NCBI GenBank assembly: GCA_022712775.1
Contig: JAFLJZ010000029.1
Span: 1-7,967 of the forward strand
DNA length: 7,967 nucleotides
Reading direction: 5' to 3'
Source of the DNA: Sulfurimonas sp.
Lineage (GTDB): Bacteria > Campylobacterota > Campylobacteria > Campylobacterales > Sulfurimonadaceae
The translations under genes and the position numbers were made by a program. A model generated the notes under the pieces. That model had not been told where the DNA came from. It saw only the letters and a program-made list of their open reading frames with translations, and ran no database searches. Position 1 is the first letter of the stretch. Every line of letters begins with the position of its first letter. Below are positions 1 to 7,967 of the stretch, piece after piece.

Positions 1-138
1 TTAAGAAAAGAGTTAAAAGTTAGAACTCCATTTGATGCAGTTCAAAGTTGGTTTCAAACGAAGCCTGAAATATTTAAGATTTTACCAGATGTGTTTCAAG
101 ATATTGCTTTTGAAATGGTACAACGTGGTGAAACTTGA
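1..138 (+). CDS. Transposase, C-terminal end only (probably IS481-like, DDE type)
   Basis: An open frame enters from the left edge and ends at TGA (136-138), leaving 45 visible residues that begin LRKELKVRTPFDAVQ and end MVQRGET. The pattern 'K-x-R-T-P-F-D-A-V-x-x-W-F' followed by 'K-P-E-I-F' resembles the tail of IS481/IS3-type DDE transposases, downstream of the catalytic core, where a TP(F/Y)-type motif precedes a short C-terminal extension. The catalytic residues lie off the window, so the family call rests on this tail alone. The stop codon sits inside the likely terminal repeat, as is common in compact insertion sequences. The gene converges on the minus-strand operon. It could belong to another DDE family; intactness cannot be judged. 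Confidence 0.5.
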   Translation, partial: LRKELKVRTPFDAVQSWFQTKPEIFKILPDVFQDIAFEMVQRGET

Positions 139-140
139 CA
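1..140 (+). mobile_element. Right end of an insertion sequence (partial)
   Basis: The transposase tail runs into ...GTGAAACTTGACA, ending at about position 140. Read inward, this is TGTCAAGTTTCAC, a TG-starting terminus of the kind expected for IS481-like inverted repeats. The boundary is inferred: the left end is not in the window, so neither the partner repeat nor a target duplication can be checked. The element stops about 17 bases past the stop codon of the MotB-like gene, so insertion seems to have landed just behind the operon and may have separated it from its original terminator. Confidence 0.4.
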
Positions 141-157
141 GCATCTTACTTACGATA

Positions 158-832
158 TTATTTTTTATTCATATTCAAAATTTCTAATAGTTTATCTTCA
201 CTTTTCATTTGAATAGTAAACTCAACTCTTCTTGCTTTTTCTTTCTCTTTTAATTTTGAAAATGCCATACCGTTAGCTCTAAAATTTGTTTCAAGCCACT
301 GTCTATGTTCTATAATGCGTTCATCATCTAAACTATAACAATAGGACAACACCTCATAAGCTCTAGCTTGGGAAAGTTGCATATTATTTAAATATATATC
401 TTTTTTAGATGTAAGAATGCCCCAAGTATCAGAAGTATGTCCTTCAACTCGTACTTCTTTTATCTCATTTTTATACTTCTCTAAAGTTAAGATTTTAATA
501 TACCTTGGGAAAAAATCTTCTAAAATAGTTTTAAACTCATTATTTATATCACTTTTACTTATTTTAAACAATACTTTTGGTGAGTGAAATACGACACTAT
601 TATCTTTAGTAATCGTAGCCTCCCATAGATGTAAATCTTTTTCAAATTCGGCATATAAAATCTCATTTAGGTCCGCCTTTGTATCTCTGTATGAGGCAGT
701 TACATCTTCCATCTTCTGCTTCTCAGATTCTACCTCTATCATAAAGCCTATAGCTATAAACAAAAAAACTAACATTAGCCCTGACATTAGGTCCGATATA
801 CTCATCCATTCGCTATTTTCTTTCAGAATCAC
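158..832 (-). CDS. MotB/OmpA-like protein, stator or ExbD-type subunit
   Basis: This 224-residue protein has a very short cytoplasmic N-terminus, one membrane helix (about residues 15-32) with the motif SDLMSGLMLVFLFIAI, a helical linker (about 36-68), and a periplasmic OmpA-like peptidoglycan-binding domain (about 80-215). Asp14 at the helix entrance matches the proton-binding Asp of MotB-family plug helices. The OmpA fold is supported by VEGHTSD (129-135), by LSQARA (153-158) with Arg157 as the expected peptidoglycan contact, and by RRVEF near the end. Family knowledge: such proteins pair with MotA/ExbB-like channels to turn ion flow into mechanical work (flagellar stators, Zorya ZorB). The partner is the preceding gene. 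The start chosen is GTG, overlapping that gene by 20 bases, because it keeps Trp9 and the residues before the helix; ATG at Met10 is an alternative. The exact role is unknown. Confidence 0.8.
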   Translation of the reverse strand: MILKENSEWMSISDLMSGLMLVFLFIAIGFMIEVESEKQKMEDVTASYRDTKADLNEILYAEFEKDLHLWEATITKDNSVVFHSPKVLFKISKSDINNEFKTILEDFFPRYIKILTLEKYKNEIKEVRVEGHTSDTWGILTSKKDIYLNNMQLSQARAYEVLSYCYSLDDERIIEHRQWLETNFRANGMAFSKLKEKEKARRVEFTIQMKSEDKLLEILNMNKK

Positions 833-1397
833 CCTTTAGTTTTTCTATAATGGAGAGTGTTGTAGCTACGCTCATTCCAACTATGGATGTAAAAAATGCA
901 GTTTTTAAACCTTCGAGAATTTTGTTGACACTATTTACAATATCCTCTGGATTAAAACCTTGTAATCCTATAAATATACCCACAAAAGTACCAAGTACGC
1001 CAACGCTAACTATTTGACTTTTTAAATCTTTTTTAGTTTTTTGATCTATAAAGGCAAGTATAAAGATAATAAGCACAAATACAATGTTAATAGGCTCAAG
1101 TAAGACATTTTTAATACTCTCACTCATGGAAACTTCTTTGGGAAGGTCCTTTTCACACATACCTAAAATCAAAATATTTTTATTTTTAGAGACAATCAAT
1201 TTACTAATTCCATCAACATTTTCTAACTCATCTATGCTTTTAAAACACTCATTAAACTCTCTATAATTTATGATTTTTTTAGCTTTCGCTTTTCCGATGC
1301 CATTGAGTTCTAAAAGTTCTGAAACGGAAGCATTATTTAAGTCTACTGTTGCATATAAATGCATTACACTAAGTAAAATAAATACAATATATTTCAA
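813..1397 (-). CDS. ComEA-like HhH domain fused to a MotA/TolQ/ExbB-type membrane domain
   Basis: This 194-residue protein appears to join two families. Residues 1-16 form a signal peptide (MKYIVFILLSVMHLYA). Residues 18-80 are a ComEA-type helix-hairpin-helix DNA-binding domain: VDLNNASVSELLELNGIG, then AKKIINYRE, then IDELENVDGIS, with cysteines 51 and 81 that could pair in the periplasm. After a short linker come three likely membrane helices: about 103-117, 129-147 (VGVLGTFVGIFIGLQGF) and 164-184 (LKTAFFTSIVGM). The last two match the proton-channel helices of MotA/ExbB/ZorA. Predicted topology is HhH domain outside, as in ExbB, with only a short cytoplasmic loop and almost no cytoplasmic tail. 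The TTG start is supported by GGAGAG 7 bases upstream. Met91 could be an internal start giving only the channel part. No stop or frameshift separates the parts. The partner is the overlapping downstream MotB-like gene. Confidence 0.72.
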   Translation of the reverse strand: MKYIVFILLSVMHLYATVDLNNASVSELLELNGIGKAKAKKIINYREFNECFKSIDELENVDGISKLIVSKNKNILILGMCEKDLPKEVSMSESIKNVLLEPINIVFVLIIFILAFIDQKTKKDLKSQIVSVGVLGTFVGIFIGLQGFNPEDIVNSVNKILEGLKTAFFTSIVGMSVATTLSIIEKLKGDSERK

Positions 1398-1404
1398 AAT
1401 AACA

Positions 1405-1410
1405 CTCTCC
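1405..1410 (-). promoter_or_regulatory. Ribosome binding site for the ComEA-MotA fusion
   Basis: On the minus strand GGAGAG lies 7 bases before a TTG codon (1397-1395), in the 18-base gap after pglB. It decides the start: TTG is the codon that yields a complete signal peptide in front of the HhH domain. Confidence 0.65.
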
Positions 1411-1415
1411 TTAAC

Positions 1416-3545
1416 TTAGATTCTAAGTTTATATATTTTTGCGTGAGCATTGATAGACACTTGTTCAAAAAGTTTTCTATCATATCGTTCTAAAACCATT
1501 AACTGAATATATAAAGAGTTAAATGTTAACTCATCAATGACTAAAAAAGTATTATACGCTGACATATAAATCACACTTAATTTTGCTCCTAAATCAACCT
1601 CTTTTAGCTCTTTTACAAAAAATTTATTATTTGTATACCCAGTTTTCACAAACCTCTTTAAAGGAACATTTTTATTATTGATAACTAAACTTAGCCCATT
1701 TTTTCTGATAGAAATATTTTGACCAAGGTTTATTAAATCATTTGTTTCTGTTAGGTTTCTACTTACAAAGAAGAATGGTGCTTTTACTTGTTTTCCCGTC
1801 ATTAAATCCATATTTGAAAATACTTTGACCGTTGGATAAATATTTAACATAGAATAAGGAAGATACAAATAAATATCTCTAGTTTTTTTAGGAAGTTCTA
1901 GCTCTGTTTGAAGTGAAAATAAAAAATCATTCGTATCATCAAACCCATACGCTTTTGTCATCTCTTCAATAGTTGAATAAACTTTTATTTTTTCTGTTTC
2001 ATTTTTATCTTCATTCTCTTTATATACACTAAACGCTTTTTCGGTAAATTCAACAGTAAGTCTTGCCATTTTAGCACTAAGCTCTGGAGAAGCTGTTAAA
2101 ATATAACTTAAAGGGAAATTCGTACTTCCTGTATGTTTTCCTCCATCTCCAAGTGTTTTAACATCCGCGAAGTAGCGTATAGGATAGCCATAGTCCCACC
2201 AAGAAATAACATAATCTTCTCTATCTGCTTTTTGCTTTAAAAAGCTAAGTGTTGCTACTTCTTGAGCATTCATAACTGTAGGTACTCTATAGGATTCTAT
2301 ATGTTTATAGTTTGGAAAAAGTATCGCTAAGGTGAAAGCTATCATACTTAAGTATTTTAACTTTTTTGTTGGCATTTTCGAAGATAGCTCTGTGATTACA
2401 AAAGCAACTCCCAAGGCTAAAATCGGCACAGCATAAATTGTAAATCGCAACCCCCCAACACTTGCTAAAAATCCAAGTCCAACTAAAGGAAGTGCAAAAA
2501 TCATAATTCTATGCTTATACACTAAATAAACATATCCAACTATAGAGATGATAAAAGTAATAGTATGTCCACTTATACGATTAGCAAAGGTTTCAAATGG
2601 AATCTTACCTGCTTCACGAATAGTTTGCATAACAGTAAAGAAGTGAAGTCCTAAGCCTTTATCTGAAGATATTATACTATCTTCAAAAATATAAACTGAC
2701 AACTTCGCCCAAATAGGATTAAATCCACCAGAGACAAAAAATAGGATTATAGATAAACCTAAAATATGATAAATATACTTTTCAAATCGTTCTTGTTTAA
2801 AAATATAAAAAGCACCCAAAACTAAAGGTAATCGTATAAAACCATCTACATTAAGCATAGCAAACATCATAATTGCCAAAAGTTTATAGTTGTACATATT
2901 TTTTCTATCAAAAACTAAAGCATATACTAATAAAAGTCCGAAAAATGAAAACTCTAAGGCATAACTTTGAGGATACCACCATCTATATACTAAAAAATCT
3001 AAGGCTGTAATCATAAGGTATTTATTTTCATTTGTTTTCACAGCCCAGATAATTGACCATAAAAGAAACATTGGCAATACAATATTTAACATATCCGTAT
3101 CATAATATCCAACCATGGTACGGTTATAATAACTCCAAGCAATAGAAGACAAAAGTGCTGCAATAAGACCCATTTCTAAATTGTCTAAGCTTTTAGCAAT
3201 GAGTATCACAGGAATCACGACTAAAGAACTTAAGTAAACTGGCATATAAAGAATGATTGTTTCAAATGAAAAAGGTAATACAGTGGCAAAAAATGCTGTT
3301 AATTGTGATGCAGCTGTAGTAGTAGGCGACAGATCATTCTCCTGTGAAATACCGCTTAGTAAATCCCTAGCACCCTCTGCCCAGTAATATCCATCATTGG
3401 TATTTATCATAAACTCACCAGCATGTTTAAACATCTCATAATCAGCGAATTGATAAATCCAAATCATTCTCATTAAGACAGAAAATGTAAAAGCGATAAA
3501 AATATATAAAAGTGTTAGTTTTGTTTCATGCGTAAGGCTATTCAT
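1416..3545 (-). CDS. pglB: Oligosaccharyltransferase PglB (STT3 family), bacterial N-glycosylation
   Basis: PglB moves a preassembled glycan from an undecaprenyl-diphosphate carrier to Asn in periplasmic proteins. The protein has 709 residues, close to the Campylobacter enzymes (about 713). A multi-span membrane part (about 1-405) is followed by a periplasmic domain. Catalytic features are intact: Asp51 in NTNDGYYW, the D-x-D pair Asp149/Asp151 in GYYDTDML, Glu311 in QTIREA, GGLRFTIY (364-371), WWDYG (449-453) with DGGKH (467-471), and the MxxI sequon-binding motif MLNI (566-569). Arg323 in NRISG lies 12 residues after Glu311, as does the Campylobacter lari Arg331 that reads an acidic residue at position -2, so a D/E-x-N-x-S/T sequon preference is predicted. 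It overlaps the glycosyltransferase stop by 8 bases, suggesting translational coupling; AGGA about 13 bases upstream is a weakly spaced binding site. Other pgl genes must lie elsewhere. Confidence 0.95.
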   Translation of the reverse strand: MNSLTHETKLTLLYIFIAFTFSVLMRMIWIYQFADYEMFKHAGEFMINTNDGYYWAEGARDLLSGISQENDLSPTTTAASQLTAFFATVLPFSFETIILYMPVYLSSLVVIPVILIAKSLDNLEMGLIAALLSSIAWSYYNRTMVGYYDTDMLNIVLPMFLLWSIIWAVKTNENKYLMITALDFLVYRWWYPQSYALEFSFFGLLLVYALVFDRKNMYNYKLLAIMMFAMLNVDGFIRLPLVLGAFYIFKQERFEKYIYHILGLSIILFFVSGGFNPIWAKLSVYIFEDSIISSDKGLGLHFFTVMQTIREAGKIPFETFANRISGHTITFIISIVGYVYLVYKHRIMIFALPLVGLGFLASVGGLRFTIYAVPILALGVAFVITELSSKMPTKKLKYLSMIAFTLAILFPNYKHIESYRVPTVMNAQEVATLSFLKQKADREDYVISWWDYGYPIRYFADVKTLGDGGKHTGSTNFPLSYILTASPELSAKMARLTVEFTEKAFSVYKENEDKNETEKIKVYSTIEEMTKAYGFDDTNDFLFSLQTELELPKKTRDIYLYLPYSMLNIYPTVKVFSNMDLMTGKQVKAPFFFVSRNLTETNDLINLGQNISIRKNGLSLVINNKNVPLKRFVKTGYTNNKFFVKELKEVDLGAKLSVIYMSAYNTFLVIDELTFNSLYIQLMVLERYDRKLFEQVSINAHAKIYKLRI

Positions 3546-4389
3546 AGATTTTTAATTTTCCTTCATACTCTTTAATATCTGATATTCTATCATACTTTAT
3601 AGCACCCTTTAAAAGGAGTTTATATTTTTTCACTAATGTATCTATAATTACATCTCCATCTCGTTCCCACGCGCCCCGAAGGAAGTACTCTTGGGGTGCT
3701 TCGCTTGGGAACGAATAATTTAATAACTTCTCTAAACTTCGAACACGAAACCTATCCATACCCCAATACTTAAAACTAAGCTGATCTTCATGCCCTGCAT
3801 ACTTAGTAATTAAAGCTTCATCAATCAGTCCTATTTCATTTTCTAAAGCGATTCTAAGCCACAAATCATAATCTTCACATACTTCTAAATGTTCATCAAA
3901 AACTCCACTAGAACCTAATAAATCTTTATGAACAATAGTAGCAGATGGTGCGATTATACAATGCGATAAACATTTTTCAAAAATATTTCCACCATATTTC
4001 TTAAATTTTTTTGGAATCTTAATTTCTTTAGAATCGCGAATCCATCTCTCGTTTGTATAACTCATTAAAATCGTAGGGTTTTGTTTATGAAACGTCATCT
4101 GTAACTCTAGTTTATTTTTATGCCAAGTATCATCAGAATCTAAAAATGCTATCCATTCGTGTTTTGCATTTTTAATCCCTAAATTTCTAGCACTAGAAAC
4201 ACCAGAATTTTTTTGATAAATATATTTTATTTTTGGAAAATCTTTTTTTATTTGTGAAGTTTTATCAGTTGAACCATCATCTACAACTATAATTTCACTT
4301 GATAGATAAGTTTGAGCGTATACAGATTCTAATGCTCTTTTTAAAAACTCATATCTATTATATGTTGGAATAACAACCGATACATACAT
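3538..4389 (-). CDS. Family 2 glycosyltransferase carrying an in-frame palindromic repeat
   Basis: This 283-residue GT-A fold enzyme transfers a sugar from a nucleotide donor. Visible motifs are the N-terminal VSVVIPTYNR (3-12), the nucleotide-binding VVDDGSTD (35-42, Asp37/Asp38), the metal-binding FLDSDDTW (82-89), and CEDYDLWLR (171-179), which holds the likely catalytic acidic pair. There are no membrane segments, so it is probably cytoplasmic. Its place directly before pglB, with an 8-base overlap, suggests it helps build or branch the lipid-linked glycan, as PglI does in Campylobacter; donor and acceptor cannot be told from sequence. Residues 226-243 are encoded entirely by a 54-base GC-rich palindrome and look like an insertion in the C-terminal helical part, after the catalytic core, so activity may survive. 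It starts 6 bases after mqnE, with AAGGAGT about 11 bases upstream of the ATG. Confidence 0.87.
   Translation of the reverse strand: MYVSVVIPTYNRYEFLKRALESVYAQTYLSSEIIVVDDGSTDKTSQIKKDFPKIKYIYQKNSGVSSARNLGIKNAKHEWIAFLDSDDTWHKNKLELQMTFHKQNPTILMSYTNERWIRDSKEIKIPKKFKKYGGNIFEKCLSHCIIAPSATIVHKDLLGSSGVFDEHLEVCEDYDLWLRIALENEIGLIDEALITKYAGHEDQLSFKYWGMDRFRVRSLEKLLNYSFPSEAPQEYFLRGAWERDGDVIIDTLVKKYKLLLKGAIKYDRISDIKEYEGKLKIYE
3661..3714. repeat. REP-like palindromic element inserted in frame in a coding sequence
   Basis: Outer arms TCGTTCCCA (3661-3669) and TGGGAACGA (3706-3714) are perfect 9-base inverted repeats. An inner imperfect stem pairs 3671-3679 with 3691-3699 (7 Watson-Crick pairs and 2 G-T wobbles) around a loop containing AGTACT. 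The 54 bases hold 33 G/C (61%) in an AT-rich gene. Length is exactly 18 codons, so the reading frame is kept; the encoded peptide is residues 226-243 of the glycosyltransferase. The GTTCCC...GGGAAC ends resemble REP-type palindromes dispersed in many proteobacterial genomes (from memory, not searched). No other copy was seen in this window, no obvious target duplication flanks it, and no T-tract follows it on either strand. Confidence 0.75.
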
Positions 4390-4395
4390 AGCTTA

Positions 4396-5457
4396 TTACC
4401 ACTCCTTAATCTCATTATAAACACTATCTCGCTCAACAGGAATAAAACCAGAATTTTTAATAAGTGCCACAAAGTCCTTTAAGTCAACCCCATTTGCACT
4501 CTTCGCTCCAGCAGCAGAATTTATAGATTCTTTCTCAATAGTTCCATCTAAATCATTCGCTCCAAATTCTTGTGCGACTAAAGCTAAATTTACAGTTGAA
4601 GTCACCCAGTAAGCCTTTAGATTAGGTACATTGTCGAGTACGATTCTCGAAATCGCCATAGTCTTTAGAATCTCATTGGCAGTGATAGGTGCTTCAATTT
4701 TCAAGTAATTATTTTGGGTCTGATACACAAGAGGAATAAAAGCATTAAATCCGCCAGTTTTATCTTGTAAATCACGAATACGCATCATATGATCGATTCT
4801 ATTTTCTCGACTTTCAACATGACCAAAAAGCATAGTAACATTAGACTTTTTACCTCTCTCATGCCATTTTTGATGGATATCTAACCATTGCTCAGTCGTA
4901 ACCTTACCCTTACAAATAAAATCACGAACCTTTTCATCAAAAATCTCAGCTCCACCACCTGGCATAGAATCTACACCATTTTCTACCATTAAGTCTATAA
5001 TTTCATCATATGTTTTATCGTAATGACGAGCAAGAAAATCGACCTCAGCAGCAGTAAGTGCTTTTACATGCATATGTGGATATTCTTTTTTTATCCGAGA
5101 AAATATATCTAAATACCATTCAAGTCCAGTATCAGGGTTATGTGCTGAAACGATATGCACTTCTTTAGCACCGTTTGCATCTACATTTTTCACAATTTCC
5201 ATAATCTCATCATGGCTCATTGTATATGGATTAGGATTTTTTCTATTTGCTGCATAGGCACAAAACTTGCAAACATCAGCACAAATATTTGTAGGATTTA
5301 TGTGACGGTTAATATTAAAGTATGTTTTCTTTGCATGTTTTTTTTGTCTGATAGAATCAGCCAATTCACCTAACTCAAAAAAGTCCATTTCATAAAGACT
5401 AACTGCTTCTTCATAACTAATTCTCTCACCTGCTTGTATTTTTTCTTTTAAGTTCAT
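4396..5457 (-). CDS. mqnE: Aminofutalosine synthase MqnE (radical SAM), menaquinone biosynthesis
   Basis: MqnE is a cytoplasmic radical S-adenosylmethionine enzyme. It adds the 5'-deoxyadenosyl radical to 3-[(1-carboxyvinyl)oxy]benzoate, giving 6-amino-6-deoxyfutalosine, a step of the futalosine route to menaquinone. The protein has 353 residues, normal for the family. The [4Fe-4S] ligands are Cys59, Cys63 and Cys66 in the C-x3-C-x2-C motif ICADVCKFCAYA. Further family markers are the preceding RHINPTN, then MPGGGAEIFDEKVRD, TMLFGHVESREN, and LQDKTGGFNAFIPL. The sister enzyme MqnC shares the fold, but the CKFCAYA version and the FIPLVYQ stretch fit MqnE better. It starts 3 bases after the kinase stop (TAA-TAA-ATG) without a strong binding site, suggesting coupled translation, and ends with TAATAA. 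No other menaquinone genes are in the window, though Campylobacterota often scatter them. Confidence 0.92.
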   Translation of the reverse strand: MNLKEKIQAGERISYEEAVSLYEMDFFELGELADSIRQKKHAKKTYFNINRHINPTNICADVCKFCAYAANRKNPNPYTMSHDEIMEIVKNVDANGAKEVHIVSAHNPDTGLEWYLDIFSRIKKEYPHMHVKALTAAEVDFLARHYDKTYDEIIDLMVENGVDSMPGGGAEIFDEKVRDFICKGKVTTEQWLDIHQKWHERGKKSNVTMLFGHVESRENRIDHMMRIRDLQDKTGGFNAFIPLVYQTQNNYLKIEAPITANEILKTMAISRIVLDNVPNLKAYWVTSTVNLALVAQEFGANDLDGTIEKESINSAAGAKSANGVDLKDFVALIKNSGFIPVERDSVYNEIKEW

Positions 5458-5460
5458 TTA

Positions 5461-7023
5461 TTAAAGTCCCGGTGCCTTCCACATTGAAGTTGTAATATTA
5501 TCATCCACTAATTTTAGCTGTACTTCATATGCTTTTTGCCATTGTAATTTTATGTCTGTATAAAGCCTATAATTGTCCATATTTGGCTCATACTCTTTAT
5601 CCCAAACTACTAATTCTTTTGAAGCTTCTACGAGTGATGGATAAATTCCAGCCCCTACTCCAGCAGAGATACAAGCACCAAGTGCTGTAGCTTCTGTAAC
5701 ACGAGGAATTTTAACTCTACATCCAGTAACATCCGCTAAAGTTTGTGACCATAGTGCACCTTTTGAAGCCCCACCTGCAAATACTATTTCGTCTATCTCG
5801 ATACCAGTAAACTCTTTTATTTTTTCTAAGTTAATCGAAGAGACTATACAAGCATTTTCTTGCAAAGCTTTAAACATTGCACTACGATTACATACTTCTG
5901 AATCTATTGAAAGGTTTAAAAAGCTAGGACTCGCATGATACCATTTTCCATATTTCATAGAATCGGAAAAAATCGGAATAATTCCATATGAACCAACAGG
6001 TACATTGGCAGCCTTTTGCTCAAGAAGTGTATACACATCTATCCCCAAATCCGAAGCTTCCAGCTTTTCTAAGTCACAAAAAGCATCTCTAAACCAACGC
6101 ATAACCAAGCCAGAAAAAAATGTAATTCCCTCAGCTTGAGAAAGTCCTGCAACAACATGAGGGTTTACTCGAATTCCCATATCTTTAGGAGGTTTAACAG
6201 TACTTGGAATATTTACAATCTGTTGCCAAAATGAGCCACCTAAAATTGCTACTTGTCCATCTTCAACGATTCCAAGTCCTGCTGAACCGAGTTGAACATC
6301 TCCACCACCTGTCACTACTTTTGTATTTATTGATAAGTTTGTTTCGTTTGCAGCAACTTCCGTTACATCACCAATAATCGTCCCAACCTCATAACAAGGA
6401 GGAAAAATATCATCTTTGATACCAACTTTCGTAGCCATAGATGAAACCCAATCACGCTTCTCTAATGAGAAGATTCCAGTCGTTCCACCATTACTAGGGT
6501 CTGTTGCTATCACCCCAGATAGACGAGCCAAAATCCAATCCCCAATCATAGAGATATTTGCAACTTTTTCATAAGTCTGGGGATGATTATTTTTAAGCCA
6601 CATGATTCTAGGTAAGGCACCTAATGCAAAAGTTTGACCAGAATCTTGATAAAACTCTTCTTCGATTCCCTCAAGATTCTCTTTTAAAAATTTCACTTCT
6701 TTCTCGGCACGTGCATCTACATTCGCAACTGCCCAAAGCTCTTTGCCTTCTTTATCATAAAGCACTATTCCCTCACGCATACTTGTTGCACTAAGAGCTA
6801 AAATATCTTCACCGCTAAGATTTGCTTGAGACAGACTGTCTTTAATACACTCACAGACTAAAGTCCAGTTTTTATCAAAGTCAAAACTCATAGAGTTAGG
6901 TACACCCTCAACTTCAAGATGCGTCCATTCTTGTTGGCTCATAGAGATTTGATTACCCTTGGTATCAAAAATTACAGAGCGTATACTTCCCGTTCCTGCA
7001 TCTATTGCCATTAAGTACTTCAT
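5461..7023 (-). CDS. lsrK: Autoinducer-2 kinase LsrK-like (FGGY carbohydrate kinase family)
   Basis: FGGY kinases phosphorylate small sugars with ATP; LsrK phosphorylates the linear form of autoinducer-2 (DPD) after uptake. The 520-residue protein matches, from memory, E. coli LsrK (about 530 residues) along its whole length. Shared blocks are DAGTGSIR (8-15), SMREGIVLY (81-89), VANVDARA (99-106), DPSNGGTTG (175-183), GGGDVQLG (239-246, Asp242 the likely catalytic base), RVNPHV, MRWFRDAFC, the ATP-domain FAGGASKG (415-422), EATALG, and the terminal MWKAPGL. It begins immediately after the stop of the aldolase/SDR gene, with AGGA 8 bases before the ATG, and is followed 3 bases later by mqnE. 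None of the usual lsr partners (lsrR, lsrACDB, lsrFG) is visible, and the neighbour is an aldolase/dehydrogenase, so the substrate might be a related deoxy-sugar rather than AI-2. Confidence 0.85.
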   Translation of the reverse strand: MKYLMAIDAGTGSIRSVIFDTKGNQISMSQQEWTHLEVEGVPNSMSFDFDKNWTLVCECIKDSLSQANLSGEDILALSATSMREGIVLYDKEGKELWAVANVDARAEKEVKFLKENLEGIEEEFYQDSGQTFALGALPRIMWLKNNHPQTYEKVANISMIGDWILARLSGVIATDPSNGGTTGIFSLEKRDWVSSMATKVGIKDDIFPPCYEVGTIIGDVTEVAANETNLSINTKVVTGGGDVQLGSAGLGIVEDGQVAILGGSFWQQIVNIPSTVKPPKDMGIRVNPHVVAGLSQAEGITFFSGLVMRWFRDAFCDLEKLEASDLGIDVYTLLEQKAANVPVGSYGIIPIFSDSMKYGKWYHASPSFLNLSIDSEVCNRSAMFKALQENACIVSSINLEKIKEFTGIEIDEIVFAGGASKGALWSQTLADVTGCRVKIPRVTEATALGACISAGVGAGIYPSLVEASKELVVWDKEYEPNMDNYRLYTDIKLQWQKAYEVQLKLVDDNITTSMWKAPGL

Positions 7024-7967
7024 TTAAATAATCCTATCGCTTCCGCCGTCTATTGCGACTTGTGAACCTGTTGTTTTAGCGAAAGCTTTTCCAGCCATTG
7101 CACATACTAATTCTGCTACATTGTCTGATTTTATTTCAGTTTTTAGAACATTATTTCTTTTATACTCATCTACTGTAATTCCATACGCTTTTGCACGATT
7201 TTCAAGCACTTCATCAGTCCAAATTGCTGTATCAAATACGGCATGAGGATGAAGAGTATTTACCCTCACACCAAACTCACCAAGCTCTAAGGCTGCGATT
7301 CTAGCTAATTGCGTTTGACCAGCTTTTGCAACTGAATACGCGGCCGCTCCTTTTCCTGGTGCTGGAAAGTTCTTCGATGCTACCATAACGATGGCTGGGT
7401 CTATTCCAAGTTTTAAAAATGGAGCTGTATATTTTAGTAATTTTTGATGTGCCGTAAGATTTATATTGATACTCTTATTCCAATTATCATCGCTTAATTC
7501 ATCGAGGTTCTCACTCGGTGTAAAGATTCCAGCGTTACTAACAACTATATCTATTCCTCCAAAGCTTTTAACCGCTATAGCAACTGCATTTTGGATTTCT
7601 TCACTTGAAGTTAAATCACACTTAACTCCAATCATATCGGGCTTTGTAAAAATATTTTCTACATCAGCATTTATGTCTAAAATAACAACTGCACAGCCTT
7701 TGGTCTTTAACATTTTTGCAATTGCCAAGCCGATTCCACTAGCCCCACCAGTTACAAGTGCTACTTTACCATTAAACTCAGGTGCAGAACCACCTTTTTT
7801 TAGTTTAGCTTGTTCCAGTGACCAATACTCAACTTCAAAAATATTCGCAGCAGATAATGCTTTATATCCACCAAGTTTTTCAGCTTTTAAAATAGCTTCG
7901 TAGGTATGGTCATTTATATCTTTAATGATATTCGCTTCTTTAGCATTTTTTCCAAAAGAAAGTGTTC
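7024..7967 (-). CDS. Bifunctional class II aldolase/short-chain dehydrogenase, C-terminal part
   Basis: The frame stays open to the right edge, so about 313 C-terminal residues are visible. A TTG at 7728 is not the start, because it lies inside the Rossmann motif. Visible residues 1-66 look like the tail of a RhaD/FucA-like aldolase and a linker (IINDHTYEAI-like region, then EKLGGYKAL, then VEYWSLEQAKL). An SDR domain follows: GKVALVTGGASGIG (66-79, NAD(P)-binding), SNAG (143-146), Asn169, and catalytic Ser197 with YSVAK (210-214; Tyr210, Lys214). In this two-domain family (typically about 650-700 residues), the N-terminal aldolase splits a ketose-1-phosphate such as rhamnulose-1-phosphate, and the SDR oxidises or reduces the aldehyde. 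The aldolase domain proper is not visible; it is inferred from the linker. Together with the abutting FGGY kinase this forms a plausible kinase-aldolase-dehydrogenase route. Confidence 0.8.
   Translation of the reverse strand, partial: TLSFGKNAKEANIIKDINDHTYEAILKAEKLGGYKALSAANIFEVEYWSLEQAKLKKGGSAPEFNGKVALVTGGASGIGLAIAKMLKTKGCAVVILDINADVENIFTKPDMIGVKCDLTSSEEIQNAVAIAVKSFGGIDIVVSNAGIFTPSENLDELSDDNWNKSININLTAHQKLLKYTAPFLKLGIDPAIVMVASKNFPAPGKGAAAYSVAKAGQTQLARIAALELGEFGVRVNTLHPHAVFDTAIWTDEVLENRAKAYGITVDEYKRNNVLKTEIKSDNVAELVCAMAGKAFAKTTGSQVAIDGGSDRII
7032..7035 (-). promoter_or_regulatory. Ribosome binding site for lsrK inside the upstream gene's end
   Basis: AGGA on the minus strand ends 8 bases before the lsrK ATG and overlaps the last codons of the aldolase/SDR gene, whose TAA directly touches the ATG. 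This supports the chosen start and coupled expression of the two genes. Confidence 0.55.

Follow-up and report, generated by a model that had tools for sequence, protein, structure and literature searches.

A ComEA-like helix-hairpin-helix domain fused to a tail-less ZorA2-type channel head in Sulfurimonas and other Campylobacterota

Zorya type II, exemplified by the solved ZorAB complex of Sulfuricurvum kujiense (PDB code, 8VVI), combines (i) ZorA, in which a channel head carries a long cytoplasmic tail, and (ii) ZorB, which contains a transmembrane aspartate and an OmpA-type peptidoglycan-binding domain. According to PMC11890865, Zorya defence requires the ZorB aspartate, peptidoglycan binding and the ZorA tail. 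ComEA is a free protein in the representatives compared here (8dss; 2duy; V. cholerae ComEA; C. jejuni Cj0011c), and PMC3879209 proposes that DNA enters the periplasm of V. cholerae by a passive ratchet, through ComEA binding. The stretch of DNA analysed here, referred to as the window (7,967 nucleotides from Sulfurimonas sp., GCA_022712775.1, contig JAFLJZ010000029.1, positions 1-7,967, forward strand), encodes a single protein in which a tandem helix-hairpin-helix (HhH) domain of ComEA type is joined to a membrane motor subunit with a ZorA-type channel head and no tail, followed by a ZorB2-like partner. The two genes form a conserved pair, present in some sulfur-oxidising bacteria, that combines a DNA-binding-type domain with a stripped-down Zorya-related motor. 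No description of a fusion between ComEA or HhH domains and ZorA- or MotA-type subunits was found among the matches listed in the literature on Zorya, ComEA, stators and Sulfurimonas.

The fusion comprises a signal-like sequence, the HhH domain and a MotA/ExbB-type channel head of three helices, all in the same frame (Table 1). The ComEA-like assignment made in the earlier note on this DNA is borne out by Pfam HHH_3 on residues 17-73 (E 1.1e-15) and by the ComEA repeat model TIGR00426, which the protein passes (56.1 bits; cut-off, 53.1 bits), the full comE protein model TIGR01259 remaining below its cut-off (58.4 versus 152.35 bits). The membrane part, described at first as a minimal MotA/ExbB/ZorA-like domain, can now be specified as a ZorA2 head: PADLOC ZorA2 matches residues 94-187 (E 1.4e-20), Pfam MotA_ExbB reaches 22.7 bits on residues 132-187 (cut-off, 22.9 bits), and precomputed annotation assigns PF01618 to 8 of the 120 fusion homologues listed. 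In a single-chain structure model, the predicted helices 102-121 and 126-146 are separated by 4 residues, and only 6 residues extend beyond the final helix, the aligned homologues being alike. Foldseek returned no match to this model at E ≤ 0.001; the statement on the fold is based on VIA-align and sequence profiles. Compared with ExbB/TolQ and MotA stator subunits, the fusion has almost no cytoplasmic domain; compared with ZorA of Zorya type II, it displays an additional ComEA-like domain, predicted to be periplasmic, ahead of the first transmembrane helix (TM1).

The fusion is confirmed and is not an artefact. A protein search retrieved 309 homologues at E ≤ 0.001, and the 120 listed among them are all fusions of 173-280 residues with the HhH domain PF12836 and a query coverage of 88-100%; many of these are also annotated with PF28082, which our own Pfam scan did not recover. 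Among the 80 loci kept from one-per-species genomes, 26 encode the fusion (L001-L025 and L030, from Sulfurimonas or other Campylobacterota), and in the remaining 54 the match begins only at about residue 84. Most loci stem from MAGs or single-cell genomes. The frame is broken in L025 and L030 and apparently also, within the signal sequence, in L022; L023 is truncated at the contig end. In the 23 other loci the mean ratio of non-synonymous to synonymous substitution rates (dN/dS) is lowest in the channel (0.10) and the HhH domain (0.15) and higher in the signal sequence (0.39) and the linker (0.52), as computed from 50 pairs that are not independent and have dS below 1.6, of which 35-49 were usable per region. 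Both the HhH and the channel parts are thus under purifying selection. That a sequencing or assembly error abolished a stop codon and joined two genes has no finding in its favour, is contradicted by the homologues, by the junction at 26 genome loci and by dN/dS, and was rejected as vanishingly improbable. The continuous frame from HhH domain to channel noted earlier therefore stands, and neither the two-gene state in close relatives nor the confinement to one assembly that the note had named as refuting was found, though 22 of the 26 fusion genomes also have a separate ComEA-like gene, about 2 kb or less from the fusion in genomes G153 and G018. Because of this co-occurrence, the fusion represents an addition rather than a replacement. 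A separate channel product from an internal methionine, also considered earlier, is probably not the principal form: 16 of 99 homologues have a methionine in residues 76-96, and selection acts on the HhH part that precedes it.

The partner gene lies downstream and shares 20 nucleotides with the end of the fusion gene. Labelled MotB-like at first, its product is more precisely ZorB2-like, with matches to PADLOC ZorB2 (E 1.5e-79), Pfam OmpA (31.5 bits) and the ZorB chain of 8VVI (E 9e-37); the NCBIfam ZorB2 model gives 172.7 bits, below its cut-off of 400. It matches ZorB of Zorya type II in both the transmembrane aspartate and the OmpA-type peptidoglycan-binding domain, the latter distinguishing it from the ExbD/TolR subunits of ExbBD/TolQR. 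By alignment, D14 corresponds to D21 of 8VVI and the aspartate is kept in all 23 rows that reach the site; S134, R157 and R202 are present in 26/26 sequences and H132 in 19/26, with tyrosine in 7. The pairing is conserved, a ZorB-like gene following the fusion immediately in 25 of 27 loci (the 26 fusion loci plus the window, as in all counts out of 27); L018 has an intact copy some 3.5 kb further on, and on the contig of L016 none was found. It is probable that the motor core is real.

PMC3879209 identifies K63 of V. cholerae ComEA as the main DNA contact, with R71 also required. Counting from the glycine of the GIG motif, the equivalent positions of the fusion are K38 and R46, occupied by lysine in 98 and by arginine in 94 of 99 fusions, respectively. 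The position of V. cholerae K62 is alanine in 81/99, and the adjacent residue 36 is lysine in 97/99. The cysteine pair C51/C81 occurs in 99/99 fusions and is shared with 19 of 20 local standalone ComEA-like proteins. The HhH domain is likely periplasmic, as had been predicted, because of the signal-like sequence, the invariant cysteine pair, and the charges of the loops, positive between TM1 and TM2 and negative between TM2 and TM3; the C-terminal stretch has a mean charge of zero and is uninformative for topology.

A tree of 83 ZorB-type proteins places the 26 fusion partners together in a single group (support 99/94), nearest to which are three ZorB2s from Sulfurovum/Campylobacteraceae (97/86); two of these, in L026 and L035, adjoin ZorE, and the genome of the third, L029, has ZorE in two pieces. 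ZorE, the HNH nuclease effector of Zorya II, was found in none of the 26 fusion genomes, many of them draft and the window's own genome not among them. The positive control recovered ZorE in 7/7 genomes with ZorA-like loci, which shows sensitivity only, not frequency, because four of the seven were known beforehand to have it. The simplest history is that a Zorya II motor shed both tail and effector and acquired a ComEA domain, a direction that we infer. A complete Zorya II acting in trans was considered and rejected, given the absence of ZorE from the 26 genomes; ZorC and ZorD were not searched for.

Since the tail is gone and the N-terminal ComEA-like domain is the sole appendage, the output of such a motor would lie in the periplasm; with the cytoplasmic side nearly empty, the work should be periplasmic and performed by a ring of HhH domains. 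We favour, at a probability of roughly 0.4, a peptidoglycan-anchored, ion-driven motor bearing ComEA modules as a ring in the periplasm, with DNA uptake as its most likely purpose. Five fusion chains would surround two ZorB-like chains in the inner membrane, the ZorB-like pair being fixed to the cell wall, and ion flow past the ZorB aspartate would rotate the ring of five. The output would be five DNA-binding modules rotating in the periplasm, in contrast to the ring of Zorya, which bears a cytoplasmic tail. The ring might then serve to grip double-stranded DNA as it enters, to wind it or to ratchet it, working alongside ComEC and the standalone ComEA-like protein, which is passive. DNA sensing, hypothesised in the earlier note together with powered uptake, would be another possible role. 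The domain make-up, the kinship with ZorAB II, the missing tail and ZorE, the gene pairing and the conserved DNA-contact and cysteine residues are directly supported; the 5:2 assembly, rotation, DNA binding and uptake are what we infer beyond them.

Several observations weigh against DNA uptake by such a motor. The HhH domain is much less basic than in the local standalone ComEA-like proteins (mean net charge +1.6 in 99 fusions versus +7.3 in 20 proteins), and the second hairpin is altered, with serine (97/99) or threonine (2/99) at the glycine position of ComEA; both features speak against strong DNA binding. In PMC10046745, the C. jejuni ComEA homologue Cj0011c is reportedly negligible for DNA uptake; the same paper describes a 10-50-fold impairment of transformation in knock-outs. 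ComEC was found in 26/26 fusion genomes, always on a contig other than that of the fusion, and also in 10 of 14 control genomes, that of E. coli among them, so that its presence says little. The full-length fusion occurs in 7 of 151 genomes of the family of G001, with a gap from 8e-70 to 1.2e-18 before the next match, and most relatives thus do without it. The structure model, finally, is of a single chain only.

This distribution bears on a second explanation, the main rival of the first, in which a Zorya-derived motor re-armed with a DNA-binding domain would catch or stall phage DNA on its way across the periplasm and would use no cytoplasmic nuclease. The kinship of the fusion-type ZorBs with the ZorE-associated ZorB2s and the patchiness of the fusion within the family are consistent with this proposal. 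An RpoB tree was built from 22 of the 26 fusion genomes (4 had no RpoB match) and 38 of 52 matching others (54 searched), and its shares are biased upwards because it took in every matching fusion genome but just some of the others. It displays 6 changes of the fusion label, a 12-row group in which all carry the fusion (92/87), a 31-row group with the fusion in 18, and four fusion genomes scattered outside. The fusion seems to have persisted in a single lineage, being lost at times and in some cases transferred. The scattered genomes (4/22) would suit a defence function, yet the 12/12 and 18/31 groups are steadier than a typical defence cassette, even if the sampling favours fusion genomes. 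By sequence look, some fusion loci are accompanied by toxin-antitoxin-like genes, PIN-like in L008, L010, L012 and L017 and MNT/HEPN-like in L016 and L025, a point in favour of phage interference. Glycan loci shape phage receptors, and the glycan genes described below count in the same direction. Against it stand the absence of the tail on which Zorya defence depends and of ZorE from all fusion genomes, which also weaken the Zorya-like defence put forward in the earlier note; we consider interference with phage DNA unlikely. As for mobile carriers of the fusion, 15 plasmid records matched, none over more than 80% of the query and, among the 8 listed, over residues 118-184 at most, and one phage record matched over residues 129-175 only, again not over more than 80% of the query; plasmid-borne and phage-borne fusions were accordingly rejected.

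A third explanation arises from the neighbourhood of the pair. At least one glycan-pathway gene lies within 6 kb of the fusion in 21 of 27 loci, the corresponding figures being 16 of 20 for standalone ComEA-like genes and 0 of 20 for control regions; the first count is partly circular because the gene set came from the fusion neighbourhoods and the window, and the comparison of standalone with control loci is less so. The labels GalU, glucose-6-phosphate isomerase, mannose-1-phosphate guanylyltransferase, nucleotide-sugar dehydrogenase, LegC-type aminotransferase, Polysacc_synt_2 and Wzz were checked; WecA-like, NAD-epimerase and initiating transferase were read from sequence, the WecA-like representative having no NCBIfam match at 1e-20, and L003, L006, L022 and L025 were counted through a glycosyltransferase alone. 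The fusion could on this basis be an energiser of ExbBD/TolQR type, whose HhH domain would grip a protein or polysaccharide of a surface-glycan pathway rather than DNA. The low charge of the HhH domain agrees with such a role, and the nearly invariant DNA-contact residues of hairpin 1 speak against it. No single glycan gene is common to all fusion loci, and the standalone genes are themselves found near glycan genes, so that the location of the fusion may be inherited from them; an envelope or glycan machine is, in our estimate, slightly less likely still than interference with phage DNA. Among the standalone loci (L098-L117), those of the more basic kind (L099, L102, L103) have no glycan-synthesis genes nearby.

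In the window itself, the genes on the far side of the fusion start encode a PglB-type oligosaccharyltransferase, a family 2 glycosyltransferase and a radical SAM enzyme of CofH/MqnC type, a candidate MqnE. The fusion is an unlikely PglB substrate: 11 of 99 fusion proteins contain the sequon, and both proteins of the window lack it. At the opposite edge, positions 1-138 comprise an open frame on the + strand that converges on the zorB-like gene, is truncated by the edge and has no Pfam match.

Table 1. Coordinates of the fusion, its partner, the putative start signals and the flanking genes in the window
Feature	Positions	Strand	Remarks
ComEA-like HhH / tail-less ZorA2-head fusion	813..1397	-	194 residues from TTG; 195 residues from ATT
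Signal-like sequence, residues 1-16	1350..1397	-	judged by eye and homologue alignment
ComEA-like HhH domain, residues 17-83; invariant C51, C81; G33, G35, K38	1149..1349	-	
ZorA2-type channel head, residues 101-188; stops at the expected start of the ZorA tail	834..1097	-	
ZorB2-like / MotB-like partner, 224 residues from GTG; N-terminal transmembrane helix with D14; OmpA-type domain	158..832	-	
Candidate non-canonical start ATT	1398..1400	-	aligned start position across loci
Shine-Dalgarno-like AGGAG	1407..1411	-	6 nucleotides 5' of ATT
Context: PglB-type oligosaccharyltransferase, outside the two-gene cassette	1416..3545	-	profile match
Context: family 2 glycosyltransferase	3538..4389	-	Pfam
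Context: radical SAM, CofH/MqnC-type enzyme	4396..5457	-	Pfam

The start of the fusion deserves separate consideration. The frame read earlier from TTG stands; its first codon may be different, since an ATT (1400-1398) lies immediately 5' of the TTG and, judging from the alignment, may be used instead. At the aligned position of the readable loci, covering the window and L001-L019, L021, L024, L025 and L030, ATT occurs in 12 and ATC in 6 (together 18/25), and ATG in 3. In 13 of the 18 ATT/ATC loci there is no ATG, GTG or TTG from the upstream in-frame stop to codon -13, and a canonical codon lies farther in, within the hydrophobic stretch, in L002, L019 and L025. All 13 loci without a canonical alternative, of which two (L025, L030) are frame-broken downstream, display an AGGA-, AGGAG- or AAGG-type site 5-8 nucleotides upstream. 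According to PMC5472188, initiation at ATT or ATC is rare and is repressed by initiation factor 3 (IF3), as in infC. Such a start would fit a motor held at low dose. The most specific version of the uptake proposal, a proton- or sodium-driven periplasmic DNA winch with a ComEA ring on a Zorya-type core and a dose limited by the conserved AUU/AUC start, is tentative and on balance doubtful.

Further ZorA-like loci were observed during the analysis. In L086 and L088-L091, a ZorA2-like protein of about 210 residues with a short tail is encoded beside a ZorB2-like gene, accompanied by conserved genes for 191-193 and roughly 82 residues; a PLD-like, DrmC-like gene also seems present, from inspection of the sequences and a scan of L091 alone, in four of these five loci. 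They possibly represent an undescribed ZorAB-type system. In Helicobacter/Helicobacteraceae (L034, L036-L060, L062, L063, L065), a ZorA-like protein of 635-1182 residues with a very long tail is adjoined by a ZorB-like gene except in L041 and L043. In L034, an ExbB/ExbD pair precedes the long-tail gene and a peptidyl-prolyl isomerase gene comes after it, with no PADLOC match.

The fusion indicates that a ZorAB core can exist without tail and effector, bearing a new domain across the membrane, and it bears on the interconversion of defence motors and transport motors. If the favoured reading is true, an active inner-membrane motor would take part in DNA uptake in place of a passive ratchet, and, with a ComEA module hard-wired to a motor that ions drive, the idea of an active DNA motor in the periplasm would become testable.
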